Origin: Synechococcus sp. WH 8020
GTDB lineage: Bacteria > Cyanobacteriota > Cyanobacteriia > PCC-6307 > Cyanobiaceae
Direction: 5' to 3'
DNA length: 64,000 nt
Assembly: GCF_001040845.1 (NCBI RefSeq)
Contig: NZ_CP011941.1
Location: 391,744 to 455,743, forward strand
How positions within the stretch are numbered: the stretch's first letter is position 1; each line of letters begins with the position of its first letter. The notes under the pieces are model-generated. The model was not told where the DNA came from. It made no database searches and saw nothing but the letters and a program-made list of their open reading frames with translations. A program made the position numbers and the translations under genes. This document shows positions 27,362-33,508 of this stretch, one piece after another.

Positions 27362-27529
27362 GACAGCGCCTGTATCAGAACTTCACACATAGTCTCGCCT
27401 GTGCGTGGGTGAATCGAGATGTCAGCTTGAAATTTGCACGCCACAGTAACGCTGCCGTTGTGCAAGCGTGTATTTAGCGGGGTTGTTGGGCGCAGACGCG
27501 GTTGAAGGTCGGTGGATAGATTTGCCCAC

Positions 27530-28621
27530 ATGCTTAAAGCTGGAATCGTCGGATTGCCCAACGTTGGTAAATCCACCTTGTTCAATGCCCTAGTGGCCAA
27601 TGCGCAGGCTCAGGCTGCGAACTTTCCGTTCTGCACGATTGAACCGAATGTGGGGACCGTGGCGGTTCCCGATGACCGTCTCCAGAAGCTGTCTGACCTC
27701 AGTCAGAGTAAGGAGCTGATCCCCACGCGGATGGAGTTCGTGGACATTGCCGGTCTGGTCAAAGGGGCCAGTCAAGGCGAAGGCTTGGGCAATAAGTTCC
27801 TATCCAATATTCGTGAGGTTGACGCGATTGTTCACGTGGTGCGTTGTTTTGAAGACGATGATGTCATTCACGTGTCTGGATCGGTGGGACCTGCTCGCGA
27901 TGCAGAGGTCATCAATCTGGAGCTTGGTTTGGCCGATCTCTCTCAGATCGAAAAGCGACGGGAGCGACTGAAGAAGCAAATGCGCACGAGTAAAGAAGCG
28001 CAAGTGGAAGATGAGGCTTTAGAGCGCATCCAACAAGTGCTCGAAGCAGGAGGCGCCGCCCGCAGCATTGAGTTGACTGATGAAGAGGCATTGATGATCA
28101 AACCGCTTGGATTGCTTACCGCCAAGCCGATTATTTATGCCACCAATGTGAGTGAAGACGATTTGGCTGCGGGCAATGCCTATTGCGAAGAGGTTGTGGC
28201 CCTTGCCGAGAAAGAAGGTGCTGAGTCCGTCCGCATTTCTGCGCAGGTAGAAGCCGAGTTGGTTGAGTTGGGTGATGAAGAATGTGCTGATTACTTGGAA
28301 GGTCTCGGCGTGAGTGAAGGAGGCCTGCGCAGTCTTATTCGTGCCACCTATCGATTATTAGGCTTGCGGACTTACTTCACAACAGGTGAAAAAGAAACAC
28401 GTGCTTGGACCTTCCGTGCCGGAATGACTGCGCCGCAAACGGCAGGAGTTATTCACACTGATTTTGAGCGTGGATTCATCCGTGCACAGACCATCGGTTG
28501 GGAGAAGTTGCTGGAGGCTGGCTCCTTGTCAGAGGCCCGAAATAAGGGATGGTTGCGTAGTGAAGGGAAGGACTATCTCGTGGCTGAAGGAGATGTGATG
28601 GAATTTTTGTTTAATGTGTAA
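27530..28621 (+). CDS. ychF: Ribosome-binding ATPase YchF/Obg-like
   Basis: A 363-residue protein, the standard YchF length: G1 loop GIVGLPNVGKSTLF, PFCTIEPNVGTV, G3 VDIAGLVKGASQGEGLGNKF, the altered G4 ATNVSEDD (NxxE instead of NKxD, which gives ATP preference), and a C-terminal TGS domain ending YLVAEGDVMEFLFNV. It binds ribosomes and modulates stress responses. The ATG at 27530 gives the family N-terminus; an in-frame GTG lies at 27512. Divergent from the adaptor gene across 168 bp. Confidence 0.95.
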   Translation: MLKAGIVGLPNVGKSTLFNALVANAQAQAANFPFCTIEPNVGTVAVPDDRLQKLSDLSQSKELIPTRMEFVDIAGLVKGASQGEGLGNKFLSNIREVDAIVHVVRCFEDDDVIHVSGSVGPARDAEVINLELGLADLSQIEKRRERLKKQMRTSKEAQVEDEALERIQQVLEAGGAARSIELTDEEALMIKPLGLLTAKPIIYATNVSEDDLAAGNAYCEEVVALAEKEGAESVRISAQVEAELVELGDEECADYLEGLGVSEGGLRSLIRATYRLLGLRTYFTTGEKETRAWTFRAGMTAPQTAGVIHTDFERGFIRAQTIGWEKLLEAGSLSEARNKGWLRSEGKDYLVAEGDVMEFLFNV

Positions 28622-29544: not shown

Positions 29545-29904
29545 TCAAAGGGCTTCAATTGCCTCCATGGCTGGAATGAATTGTGTGCTGTTTTGATTGA
29601 AATCTGTGCATTCTTGGTTCATGGCTTCGCTCACCAGCTTGATGGTTTGGGTGGCTTGTGAGGACTTCAGCCAGCCCTTTTGGGACTCCCAATTGTTTTT
29701 TTTGATAGCGGTTGCCACGATGAGATCAGCACGCTTTTGGCTGTAGTCAGCGTGAATCATCTTGCAGGCTGCGTACGCAGATTGACCCACGAGTCCTCGA
29801 CGCATGTCTTGCTCGGACATTTGGGCTTGTGCCCCAGTCCAAAGGATCGATTGATTCAGCATCAAACCAAGGCCGATCCAAAGGAAATTTGTGCGGGGCA
29901 TCAT
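29545..29904 (-). CDS. Secreted protein, unknown
   Basis: A 119-residue protein with an N-terminal signal peptide (hydrophobic core FLWIGLGLMLNQSILW, likely cut after AQA), then a helical mature part with two cysteines (AYAACKMIHADYSQKRADL and NQECTDFNQ) that could form a disulfide. No known domain. It begins 4 bp after the Coq4-like gene stop and is probably in the same transcript. Confidence 0.65.
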   Translation of the reverse strand: MMPRTNFLWIGLGLMLNQSILWTGAQAQMSEQDMRRGLVGQSAYAACKMIHADYSQKRADLIVATAIKKNNWESQKGWLKSSQATQTIKLVSEAMNQECTDFNQNSTQFIPAMEAIEAL

Positions 29905-29908
29905 GGGC

Positions 29909-30589
29909 TTACTCGTAGTTCGCGCTGAAAGTCTCGCCTGTGGCCATAGGGATGGCGAGTTCCTCTCTCCATTGGCTTAGAGGTTTCTCCCAGCCTTCCT
30001 CCCAGCGCTGTAAGACGAGGGGCTTGGCCTGCAGGCCGATGCGCTGTCCGTGCGCAATGGCTCGACTGATGGCTTCGTATTCAGTTGGTTGAAAGCGGAA
30101 GGCCTTAAAACTGGCCAGAAGGTTGAGGAGTACGTAGGCGGGGAAGCCAATCTGATTGGCGGTGATTGCCAACACTGCTGACTCTCCCTGTACTTGGGTG
30201 TTGAGCCCAGCGACCACGTGATGAATGTCATGGGTGGTGGCGATGCGTTGAGTGAGCCAGAGCGCGTCTGTGCTTGTGTCTCGGGGACGGAAAAAGTCAG
30301 CGTCGTAATTCAAGCGGCGAATCATTCCTGCATAAGCCCTGCCCAGTGTTCCTTCCGGAAGCAACTCCAGCGTCTCAATCTGTGGCTGAAAGGCTGGGAA
30401 GCGCTGCTCCATCATGTCTGCACCGCCAGGTAAGGCCTTAAACCGCGCGATTGAAACCGCCATCGCCTCACTGTCGAGGAAGTTGTCGATCAGGTCACCT
30501 ACCCCTTTGAGTCCCCCATCGCTGACTGCAATCTCGCGCAGGATGCGCAAATTTTTAACGGAGCGCAGCAGTTCTCGGGTTCCTGACAT
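29909..30589 (-). CDS. Coq4-like protein
   Basis: A 226-residue protein of the Coq4 family. It keeps the metal motif HDxxH-x11-E: His120, Asp121, His124 and Glu136 (THDIHHVVAGLNTQVQGE), preceded by YAGMIRRLNYDADFF, which is also family-like. In mitochondria and some proteobacteria Coq4 acts in ubiquinone synthesis, in C1 decarboxylation/hydroxylation. Cyanobacteria make plastoquinone instead, so the role here is open. Its start lies 35 bp inside the end of the upstream MFS gene, and a secreted-protein gene follows after 4 bp, suggesting one three-gene unit. Confidence 0.82.
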   Translation of the reverse strand: MSGTRELLRSVKNLRILREIAVSDGGLKGVGDLIDNFLDSEAMAVSIARFKALPGGADMMEQRFPAFQPQIETLELLPEGTLGRAYAGMIRRLNYDADFFRPRDTSTDALWLTQRIATTHDIHHVVAGLNTQVQGESAVLAITANQIGFPAYVLLNLLASFKAFRFQPTEYEAISRAIAHGQRIGLQAKPLVLQRWEEGWEKPLSQWREELAIPMATGETFSANYE

Positions 30590-31916
30590 CTAGAGGTTCC
30601 TCAATGGGGCTTCCACTCAAATTTGGCTTGTAGCGGGGTCTAACGGCCTTCAGCAGGGGCACCACTGCTAAGCAGGTGCCAGCCATCAACAACCAAAGCA
30701 CCAAGCCGTGACCCTGCTGGTCTAAAAGGGCACCTGCTAGAAGAGGTGCGGCAATGGCACTGAACGCAAAGCACTGCGAGAACAAGGCCATGGCTAAACC
30801 GCGATGTTGCAGTGGCGTTTCCTCCACCATCGCTTCTGCCGCCGTTGGTAAAAAAGCAGCCTCTCCAAAGGCGATCGGAACCATCGCAAGCGCAATCAGG
30901 CTGCTGCCTCCCGCCCAGAGCGCTGACCCAGCCAATAACAGGCAGCCCGCGATGAATCCAAGCAGACCCATGCCTAAGCCAAAACGCAAACTGCGCTTTG
31001 CCACCCAGTTGCCGATGGGCCACTGAAGCACCGTCAACAGAAGAAGCTGCCAAGCAATCAAGCCGCCGCTGGAGGCTTCGCTGAGGGGTTCGCGTGCGAG
31101 CCCTCCTCGCACCATGTCGAGCGGAAGGGCGCTTTGCATTAAAGACACAATCCCAGTGGCGATGACGCTCACAATCAGCACTGGAATGAGCGGTAGAAGC
31201 CAGTGCCAGTCTGCCGCTGAGTGGGCTTTGGCTTCAGTCTTGGAATCGCCGGTTGACGCCGTCTCAGCTGTGAGTTTGTGGTTTTGGGTTGTCGCGGCGC
31301 TGGCATGTAGGAATGCGGCCCGTCCGTCTGGCAGGGGCGTGATCCACAACACCACCAACATGCTCAAAACGGCCGCGGCCTCGACCGCATAGACCATTCG
31401 GATCATCTCCATGGCCGTCAACAGCGCACCAAGTAATGCGCCGGCGGCAACTCCTAAGGCGTCAGCGCTGCGAGCGAGAGCGTATCCACGGCTGGACGTG
31501 AAACCACTGCAGCTCAATGGAACCGCCAATTCAATTGCAGGGAAATACAGCCCGGCCGCCACACCGATCAGCAACTGTCCAACGAGGTATCCGTTGAAGC
31601 CTGTGGCCCGAAACAGCACCAAATCCGCCATGACGGCGAGCAGGGCAGCCGCTCGGACTGGCCATGAGCAGGTAAGCCCGCGGTCCAGCATGACGCCACT
31701 CAACAGCCTTGCCACCGTGCCGATCAAGGCAGAGGCCGCTAACCCTTGACTCACTTGCACTGCCGTGAAGCTGGCCTGGTGAAACACGATCGGTGTCAGA
31801 TAAATGACACCACCCGCTCCAAAAGAAGCGAGCAGGCGAATAAACGCCACTTCTTGCAAAGGTGCGGGAAACTGGTTCCACCAGTGGACTGGTCTTGGCC
31901 TTGCGACGACGCTCAA
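30555..31916 (-). CDS. MFS transporter
   Basis: A 453-residue protein with 12 predicted helices and a hydrophilic central loop (about residues 205-235, rich in Ala, Thr and Glu). Motif A is weak (SGVMLDRGL). It shows no clear subfamily signature; similar cyanobacterial proteins are annotated as permeases of unknown cargo. TTG start at 31916. It overlaps the Coq4-like gene by 35 bp, and its 5' end overlaps that of the divergent DUF1400 gene if both use their longest starts. Confidence 0.83.
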   Translation of the reverse strand: MSVVARPRPVHWWNQFPAPLQEVAFIRLLASFGAGGVIYLTPIVFHQASFTAVQVSQGLAASALIGTVARLLSGVMLDRGLTCSWPVRAAALLAVMADLVLFRATGFNGYLVGQLLIGVAAGLYFPAIELAVPLSCSGFTSSRGYALARSADALGVAAGALLGALLTAMEMIRMVYAVEAAAVLSMLVVLWITPLPDGRAAFLHASAATTQNHKLTAETASTGDSKTEAKAHSAADWHWLLPLIPVLIVSVIATGIVSLMQSALPLDMVRGGLAREPLSEASSGGLIAWQLLLLTVLQWPIGNWVAKRSLRFGLGMGLLGFIAGCLLLAGSALWAGGSSLIALAMVPIAFGEAAFLPTAAEAMVEETPLQHRGLAMALFSQCFAFSAIAAPLLAGALLDQQGHGLVLWLLMAGTCLAVVPLLKAVRPRYKPNLSGSPIEEPLDVRNPRTAALR

Positions 31917-33508
31917 CAGGACTGCGAATAGCTGCAGGTTGTGTGTGCAGTCTGCTGTTTTTAGGCGTCTTACCGCGTCCGTTATGGGCTGCTTCTCAGC
32001 TGGAAGTCCAGATCGATGGCACGGTTATTCCCTTTTCCATTGCTGATTTAGCGAAATGGGTGCGCTCGGATGGAGGTCATCGCTCCGAGCTCAGTACTTG
32101 GTTCTCCTTGTTAGCGCCGGAGAGTCGAGCTGGCATGTTGGAGCTGCTTAAGGCTCCTTTGATCTTGGATCGCAGCATGGCGCGCCAGCTCTTGAATAGC
32201 TGGGCTGGCCGGCAGTTGTTAGATCAAATTGCTGATTTGGTGCGGGTGGACGATGACACAGAAGGGGTCATTGTTCGACAAACGATCAATGAACTCCTAA
32301 CCCAACAGCAGCAGATTTCGAGCTTGGATTTGCTTGAGGCATTGCCTGCTGAAAGCGTTCGTCTCGATCTCGATCTTTTGGTTCAGCTGGCATCCGGTTG
32401 GCGGATGCAACTTGAGCGCCAACAAAACTTGGTGCGTCGCCTCGATCGCATCCCCCTCACGGCCTCAGCTTCGAAGCGTCCGGCTGTCTCCTCTCAAGAC
32501 TCCGACCCATGGTTAGAGCCGCGTTTGATGTCCCTGGAGGTCAGCCACCGCAAGGAGCCTTTGGAGTTTCAGCTTTGGCTGCCTGCGGAGGGGGCCCCAA
32601 AGCGAGAGCAATGGATGGTGCTGATGCCGGGTTTAGGGGGCAGCCCAGATCATTTCCGCTGGCTTGGTCGCGGTCTCAGTCGTCGAGGTTGGGCCGTCGT
32701 AGTTCCAGAGCACCCTGGCAGTGATGACGAGGCGGTCCAAGCGCTCTTGGAAGGGCGTCTTTCCCCTCCCGGTGCCGAAGTGCTTCCCGCTCGGCTCAAG
32801 GATCTAGATGCCTTGCTGAAGGCTCGCGCTCAGGGATTGTTTCAGGCTCCAGGTCAACGCTTGGTCTTAGCTGGCCACTCCCTGGGTGCGTTTAGCGCAC
32901 TGCTGTCCACAGGTGCAAGGCCAGCTCCAGGTCTTGCGCGACGTTGCTCTTCGGTTTTGGGCGATTTGCCGCTGAGCAACTTGTCGCGTCTGTTGCAGTG
33001 TCAGTTGGTGGATGTTTCTTTGCCCAAGCAAGCCGCACCTCATGCGTTGTCGGCTGTGATTGGCTTCAACAGTTTTGGCAGCTTGCTTTGGCCTGCCAAC
33101 TCTCTTTCGAAAATCGTCAAAGTGCCTGTGTTGTTGACGGGCGGCACCCTTGATCTGATCACGCCACCGATCAGCGAACAGTTGGGTTTGTTGTTGGCGA
33201 TGCCTGCCGATCCTTCCAGTCGAGTGGTGCTTGTGGAGGGAGCGAGTCATTTTTCCCCCGTGCGGGTGGAGGGGCAAAGACAAGGTGGACGGGGTGAGGA
33301 TCTCTTTCAGCTGGGAGAAGAACTCGTGGGTGTTCAGCCGCTCCAGGTCCAAGCGCTCTTGGAGCAGGAGGTGGTGCAGTTTTTAGTGGAACAAGAACAG
33401 AGCAATGCTGAGCCCCGATCTACGGCCAAGACGCTGCATTTGAAGCTGGGCGAGCTTCACCTTCATCGGCTCGATCGAGAAGCGGCGTCAGCCTTGGTGC
33501 ATCAGTAA
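31862..33508 (+). CDS. DUF1400 alpha/beta hydrolase, exported
   Basis: A 548-residue protein. A signal sequence (RIAAGCVCSLLFLGVLPRPL, cut near AAS) is followed by the DUF1400 domain (residues ~45-190, with the helical FSIADLAKWVRSD and LLKAPLILDRSMARQLLNSW). A hydrolase domain comes next: MVLMPGLGGSPDHFRWL, nucleophile LAGHSLGAFSALLST, acid LTGGTLDLITPP, base EGASHFSP. DUF1400 is a cyanobacterial signature domain. Extracytoplasmic hydrolase, substrate unknown. GTG 31862 is the longest start; TTG 31895 or 31901 would avoid overlap with the divergent MFS gene. Confidence 0.85.
   Translation: MRETGSTSGLVLALRRRSTGLRIAAGCVCSLLFLGVLPRPLWAASQLEVQIDGTVIPFSIADLAKWVRSDGGHRSELSTWFSLLAPESRAGMLELLKAPLILDRSMARQLLNSWAGRQLLDQIADLVRVDDDTEGVIVRQTINELLTQQQQISSLDLLEALPAESVRLDLDLLVQLASGWRMQLERQQNLVRRLDRIPLTASASKRPAVSSQDSDPWLEPRLMSLEVSHRKEPLEFQLWLPAEGAPKREQWMVLMPGLGGSPDHFRWLGRGLSRRGWAVVVPEHPGSDDEAVQALLEGRLSPPGAEVLPARLKDLDALLKARAQGLFQAPGQRLVLAGHSLGAFSALLSTGARPAPGLARRCSSVLGDLPLSNLSRLLQCQLVDVSLPKQAAPHALSAVIGFNSFGSLLWPANSLSKIVKVPVLLTGGTLDLITPPISEQLGLLLAMPADPSSRVVLVEGASHFSPVRVEGQRQGGRGEDLFQLGEELVGVQPLQVQALLEQEVVQFLVEQEQSNAEPRSTAKTLHLKLGELHLHRLDREAASALVHQ

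Follow-up and report, generated by a model that had tools for sequence, protein, structure and literature searches.

A Coq4-family protein with a complete metal motif in a plastoquinone-making Synechococcus, paired with an older MFS transporter gene

The window, a stretch of 64,000 nucleotides from Synechococcus sp. WH 8020, encodes a Coq4-family protein that is intact and under purifying selection in a host that makes plastoquinone and not ubiquinone. More than half of the class genomes sampled lack Coq4, and Coq4 does not appear in those where the decarboxylase UbiD is missing; it is therefore neither a core step of plastoquinone synthesis nor a substitute for UbiD there. The window protein is probably an optional accessory enzyme, with some other fatty or ring-shaped compound as its substrate. 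Our preferred reading, which is held tentatively, is that it is an accessory metalloenzyme which modifies a lipophilic compound exported by the genus and which stands apart from the core plastoquinone pathway. The features concerned are the following.

29909..30589, minus strand: Coq4-family protein, 226 aa (PF05019 match, AlphaFold2 model, dN/dS)
30182..30232, minus strand: metal motif HDIHH-x11-E, codons 120 to 136 (H120, D121, H124, E136), read from the sequence
30555..31916, minus strand: MFS transporter, 453 aa counted from the first TTG (PF07690, 73.8 bits)
30555..30589, minus strand: 35 bp overlap of the 3' end of the MFS gene with the 5' end of coq4 (sequence; also at other loci of the genus)
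29545..29904, minus strand: small protein of 119 aa whose start resembles a signal peptide, encoded 4 bp past coq4 (open reading frame)
31862..33508, plus strand: flanking divergent alpha/beta hydrolase (DUF1400; PF07176, 68.3 bits), an ancestral neighbour of the MFS gene
27512..28621, plus strand: flanking ychF (TIGR00092)

The Coq4 open reading frame lies on the minus strand, and the plus-strand translation of 29909-30589 is interrupted by stops. The sequence-only reading had described the product as Coq4-like with a complete HDxxH-x11-E motif, and had named a PF05019 search and motif conservation in homologues as checks. Both descriptions are borne out. The PF05019 profile matches the protein with an E-value of 3e-19 and 69.6 bits, the cut-off being 22.9, so that the match is not a chance one, and the motif, THDIHHVVAGLNTQVQGE, provides His120, Asp121, His124 and Glu136 in the 226-residue protein; the NCBIfam search gave no match to the protein at E 0.1. 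The closest solved structures by sequence are both from Nostoc (3MSQ, E 5.8e-24, and 6E12, which is Alr8543, E 3.9e-13). An AlphaFold2 model calculated with 52 aligned sequences has a mean pLDDT of 93.7 and a pTM of 0.91, and aligns with 6E12 (Z of 26.0 over 210 residues) and with 3MSQ (Z of 25.3 over 206 residues). Beyond these two Coq4 proteins the best row in the fold lists has a Z of 3.1, a result that leaves room for other kin. The query used for the profile and structure searches, the alignments and the model was the 225-residue protein without its first Met, and its alignment positions (A1, A2) are one lower than those of the protein numbering. Family profile, metal motif and fold all identify the window protein as a member of the Coq4 family. 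For the pairs in which it could be computed, dN/dS within the genus is about 0.04-0.15, and the motif, the fold match and this low ratio together show that the protein is intact and selected.

The motif is also well conserved in the homologues. HDxxH-x11-E is present in 128 of 134 Coq4 proteins that came from genomes of cyanobacteria and from plasmids, two of the proteins being proteobacterial. Two have HExxH in place of HDxxH (the paralogue L007:4912-5637, and L196:4854-5570), and four depart in other ways, with a spacing of 10 in two, a spacing of 12 in one and a Gly in place of the motif Glu in L173 (L173:4956-5690). Neither of the two His residues nor the Glu varies across 52 aligned deep-clade sequences, and conservation of the Asp is 90% or more.

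UbiD is the accepted C1 decarboxylase of plastoquinone synthesis, and plastoquinone is made by all members of the class. The distribution of Coq4 was compared with that of UbiD in 291 genomes of the phylum, 138 of which are in the class (the window genome itself and genomes of the same genus, family and class). PF05019 has a match in 66 of the 291, 65 of them above the cut-off. Within the class Coq4 is matched in 60 genomes and not in 78, while UbiD (PF01977) is found in 121 of the 138, including all 60 with Coq4 and the window genome. All 17 genomes of the class that lack UbiD also lack Coq4, and a second domain model confirms that UbiD is missing from these (0/17 above cut-off). These 17 are 11 small genomes of genus g2 (G107, G161, G163, G169, G209, G217, G219, G241, G247, G257 and G259) and six others (G051, G056, G109, G119, G151 and G211). 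In the class, therefore, Coq4 neither is generally present nor replaces a missing UbiD. The suggestion in the sequence-only reading that the protein might act in plastoquinone synthesis does not survive this comparison as far as a core role is concerned: its proposed check, the phylogenetic spread against plastoquinone genes, was run against UbiD, and the spread counts against such a role. A core enzyme is rejected on the 78 genomes without Coq4, and a UbiD substitute on the constant company of UbiD in Coq4 genomes and the absence of Coq4 from all 17 UbiD-less ones. The result agrees with the published pathway of a UbiD-type enzyme and a hydroxylase. In the excerpted text of one study, Synechocystis has less plastoquinone when sll0936, the gene of a putative UbiD-type decarboxylase, is deleted (PMC7133116), and an excerpt of another states that the pathway uses an O2-dependent hydroxylase gained from the ubiquinone pathway of Pseudomonadota (PMC13386864).

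UbiD does stand beside coq4 elsewhere. In the sister genomes G074 and G072, whose Coq4 is of another clade, it lies directly upstream in the same orientation, about 240 bp away (L121:3243-5636 and L127:5001-7390), and in G181 a coq4 gene and UbiD are 4.9 kb apart. They make up three of the 55 Coq4 places found on the same contig as UbiD, out of the 90 listed for the class; the 90 were copied by hand and are partial, with fragments and some others omitted, and the omitted places on UbiD contigs are at least 74 kb away as judged by eye. The window coq4 is about 537 kb from UbiD, and no UbiD link was seen for its clade. The UbiD-linked clade includes the high-scoring L119, in which PF05019 covers positions 9-219 (150.9 bits), compared with positions 74-218 only (69.6 bits) in the window protein. 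UbiD beside coq4 in this other clade therefore keeps a plastoquinone link open for it, and is a hint of such a link for the UbiD-linked clades to which the window copy does not belong. Outside the class, five of the six genomes with Coq4 have no UbiD match (G004, G010, G018, G032 and G035; loci L134, L124, L142, L137 and L140, respectively), and we presume these five to be non-photosynthetic. In four of these five loci the gene directly upstream of coq4 belongs to one shared family, which in L142 is of acetyltransferase type.

The window genome has four Coq4 genes: the window copy, L005, L006 and L007. The paralogues carry the motif variants HDIVH (L005), HDIFH (L006) and HEIHH (L007, Glu for Asp). 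L005 follows an arginine decarboxylase-type gene, and two near-alike genes for exported-looking proteins (L006:129-1199 and L006:8274-9425; start MLRHLSLGILAS) flank the third paralogue. In a maximum-likelihood tree of 134 rows, which has several long branches and some deep joins that are unsure, the window copy falls in a clade of 41 rows from Cyanobiaceae only (bootstrap 100, SH-aLRT 99). A single clade of the four copies, as would follow from recent duplication as the source of all of them, is rejected by the AU test (p 5.9e-95); L006 and L007 grouped in a quick tree, and the AU result leaves kinship of two copies possible. Window-type copies (49-100% identity over at least 206 residues) occur at 48 places in 47 of the 151 sampled genomes of the family, and any Coq4 match in 69 of the 151. 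Of these places 40 were fetched in addition to the window itself, and the other seven were left out. The nearest named relatives, among the best 80 of 183, are from marine Synechococcus AG-686-F08 (95%) and WH7803 (71%), followed by many records of Cyanobium, Vulcanococcus and Synechococcus. A metagenome bin titled Bifidobacterium breve (L275) also has a Cyanobiaceae-type Coq4 and is probably misnamed or contaminated. More distant copies are found on twelve plasmids, ten of them cyanobacterial, where TetR regulators, SDR oxidoreductases, a P450 and a methyltransferase are among the genes annotated nearby. A search of viral contigs with one query, which reaches close relatives only, gave no relative of the window Coq4. 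Coq4 in cyanobacteria is a plastic, patchy, partly plasmid-borne and often multicopy accessory family.

Along the minus strand of the window the order is the MFS transporter gene, the Coq4 gene and the small secreted-type gene. The arrangement given by the sequence-only reading is confirmed in detail: the MFS gene overlaps coq4 by 35 bp (31916..30555 against 30589..29909), and the secreted-protein gene, with its signal-peptide-like start, begins 4 bp past the coq4 stop (29904..29545). The small protein has no family above cut-off in Pfam-type and NCBIfam profile searches and is present in five of the 151 sampled family genomes, all of the same genus. The overlap is found in five of the six sampled genomes of the genus, the window genome counted; in the sixth, G286, the two genes are about 750 bp apart. 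It recurs in seven of eight genus loci among the best 80 of the 183 named relatives, the eighth (L202) having no MFS match on its stretch; WH7803 (L201) is one of the strains with this pair, and UW140 is common to both sets. Outside the genus an MFS gene stands beside coq4 in none of the 34 sampled loci with a called coq4 reading frame (a 35th, L075, gave none) and in none of the 72 named loci among the best 80 of 183. A comparison of the window transporter with solved structures, as a guide to its type, yielded no hit at an E-value of 0.01.

The MFS gene predates its pairing with coq4. It has a homologue in 124 of the 151 family genomes at E 1e-30, and in 24 MFS loci from genomes outside the genus coq4 is on the stretch in none and the divergent hydrolase in 23. 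In the sister genus g9, ychF lies 370-630 bp past the MFS gene in three of six loci (L086, L087 and L088), all without coq4, and no ychF is present on the stretch examined for the remaining three. Because the MFS gene is widespread, the coq4-free loci have the hydrolase and, in three of them, ychF, and the small gene was found in this genus only, the arrangement is most simply explained by an insertion of coq4 and the small secreted-type gene between the MFS gene and ychF in an ancestor of the genus. Retention of the overlap since that insertion suggests that MFS and Coq4 are coupled, but the pairing is one event. The proposal that the three genes form a small unit making or exporting a compound is therefore possible for this genus only, in which the overlapping pair is real, since the MFS gene predates the pairing and the secreted-type gene was found in no other genus of the family sample.

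A second association of Coq4 with transporters is seen in a separate clade of 12 rows (support 100/99; L109, L112, L139, L143, L151-L154, L159, L164, L168 and L181); in 11 of these rows a TetR gene and coq4 are divergently oriented. Directly beside coq4 in L139, L143 and L154 there is an MFS gene, which is 721 bp off in L152 and more than 3 kb off in L164. No common ancestry was detected between the window MFS and those of the TetR units. There is no TetR gene beside the window coq4, and the copy is in another clade; it is thus not part of a TetR-regulated Coq4-MFS unit. Among 140 immediate neighbours of other cyanobacterial Coq4 genes the families counted include TetR_N (9), Urease_beta (4), cobW (4), MFS_1 (3), UbiD (2) and P450 (2), among the first 25 of 199 families. 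These neighbours come from the 144 listed for L118-L197, with four long reading frames from genus members omitted (L162, L170 and two of L184), and the window-clade loci L038-L077 are outside the count. With MFS_1 at three of the 140, a general enrichment of MFS genes beside Coq4 is not seen; a unit of regulator, enzyme and pump exists despite this lack of general exporter enrichment.

Genes for nickel enzymes form another kind of neighbourhood. Two separate clades, one of them that of the window, have Coq4 genes within urease operons, each clade at a position of its own. The order ureD-coq4-ureABC is found in L053 and L240 (one genome), L229, L235, L237, L267 and L276, and ureD-coq4 was seen in L057, L230 and L242; the order ureB-coq4-ureC is found in L123, L125, L132 and L136. 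In a third group (L144, L172, L180 and L183) the nickel chaperone genes hypA-hypB precede coq4 on the same strand.

The case for an accessory metalloenzyme is built on the family, motif, fold and purifying selection of the window protein, on the patchy presence of Coq4 (60/138) against the near-general presence of UbiD (121/138), and on the four non-monophyletic copies and the ten on cyanobacterial plasmids. The overlap kept in the genus and the separate TetR clade with a different MFS add the element of export. Since the fold and the ligands match those of COQ4 and the Nostoc protein, we infer a lipophilic ligand and oxidative chemistry at a metal. The helical fold would hold a lipophilic tail, either a fatty or a prenyl chain, and the His-Asp-His-Glu site would hold a metal that drives an oxidative change. 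The bound ligand would most likely be a lipophilic acid or a phenol that is oxidatively modified at the metal, and the most likely reaction, by analogy with the one reported for eukaryotic COQ4, would decarboxylate and hydroxylate a lipid acid, whether aromatic or of another kind. As coq4 appears to have settled behind the older MFS exporter in this genus, the product, or a toxic substrate, would probably be pumped out by the MFS partner. The same interpretation is weakened by the origin of the MFS pairing in one event in one genus and the three MFS_1 genes among 140 neighbours, by the wide variety of Coq4 neighbours, which indicates no one pathway, and by the UbiD neighbours of the other clade, which leave room for a plastoquinone link in the family. 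A broader extension, which we regard as a rather improbable one, is that picocyanobacteria have through Coq4 a second O2-dependent decarboxylation-hydroxylation chemistry, parallel to UbiD, that makes secreted prenylated or fatty aromatics, with several paralogues each acting on its own substrates and one of them tied to an MFS exporter.

The same site and fold could also serve a protein that is not an enzyme, namely a lipid-binding or scaffold protein which carries a prenyl or fatty chain and in which the metal site is structural. The 6E12 structure, whose title names oleic acid and which an excerpt of PMC9774615 describes with Mg2+ and oleic acid, is in keeping with this, as is the synthome-forming role of Coq4 described in the same excerpt; L173, where Gly replaces the motif Glu, and L007, where Glu replaces Asp, show that the site can vary. 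The invariance of both His residues and the Glu, with the Asp at least 90% conserved, in the 52 deep-clade sequences argues against a merely structural site, and we consider this explanation unlikely. A scaffold for plastoquinone enzymes, or an O2-dependent alternative to UbiD plus hydroxylase, would place the window protein in plastoquinone synthesis after all. Excerpted text of PMC11495197 gives as the reaction of eukaryotic COQ4 a single oxidative step that decarboxylates and hydroxylates the prenylated ring at C1, which is the chemistry that such a role would need, and both the three places with UbiD near coq4 and the five UbiD-less Coq4 genomes outside the class point the same way. The distribution within the class, the distance of some 537 kb between the window copy and UbiD and the published route through sll0936 and a hydroxylase make this quite unlikely for the window protein. 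A role in metal handling, for example in the maturation of nickel enzymes with the His-Asp-His-Glu site binding the metal, is suggested by the urease operons of two clades, including that of the window, and by hypA-hypB in a third; no nickel gene adjoins the window copy, however, and the urease and hypAB links may represent few events, so that we judge it very improbable. The accessory metalloenzyme accordingly stays our working interpretation.

The window gene adds a member to a known family. The solved Nostoc proteins mean that Coq4 in an organism without ubiquinone was already on record, and the two structures pre-date any surprise on that account; our search of the open-access literature found no substrate, activity or functional study of a cyanobacterial Coq4. 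The present analysis adds a test by distribution that counts against a core plastoquinone role, the finding that a single small genome holds four copies of separate descent, and the gene contexts with regulators and exporters. Coq4, known as a ubiquinone protein, has spread through cyanobacteria with its metal site mostly intact. Should these proteins prove to decarboxylate other lipids oxidatively, a so far uncharacterised part of the family would be open to assay and might reveal how eukaryotic COQ4 acquired its role.

The closest known proteins, Alr8543 of Nostoc sp. PCC 7120 (6E12) and the Nostoc punctiforme protein 3MSQ, resemble the window Coq4 in fold, motif and cyanobacterial host, and differ from it in sequence, with only 25-27% identity. 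Eukaryotic COQ4 has PF05019 and HDxxH-x11-E in common with the window protein, but its host makes ubiquinone, whereas the host of the window protein makes plastoquinone. The TetR-linked cyanobacterial clade is similar in combining a Coq4 gene with an adjoining MFS gene at three loci; in contrast to the window, it is a separate clade with a divergent TetR gene, and its MFS genes have no detectable relation to that of the window. A further parallel is the prochlorosin gene cluster of Synechococcus MITS9509, which contains a Coq4 gene according to excerpted text of PMC10783134. As described in that excerpt, this Coq4 is like that of the window in belonging to a marine Synechococcus and in lying outside a quinone pathway, and unlike it in that its cluster also contains polyketide synthase and ketoreductase domains.
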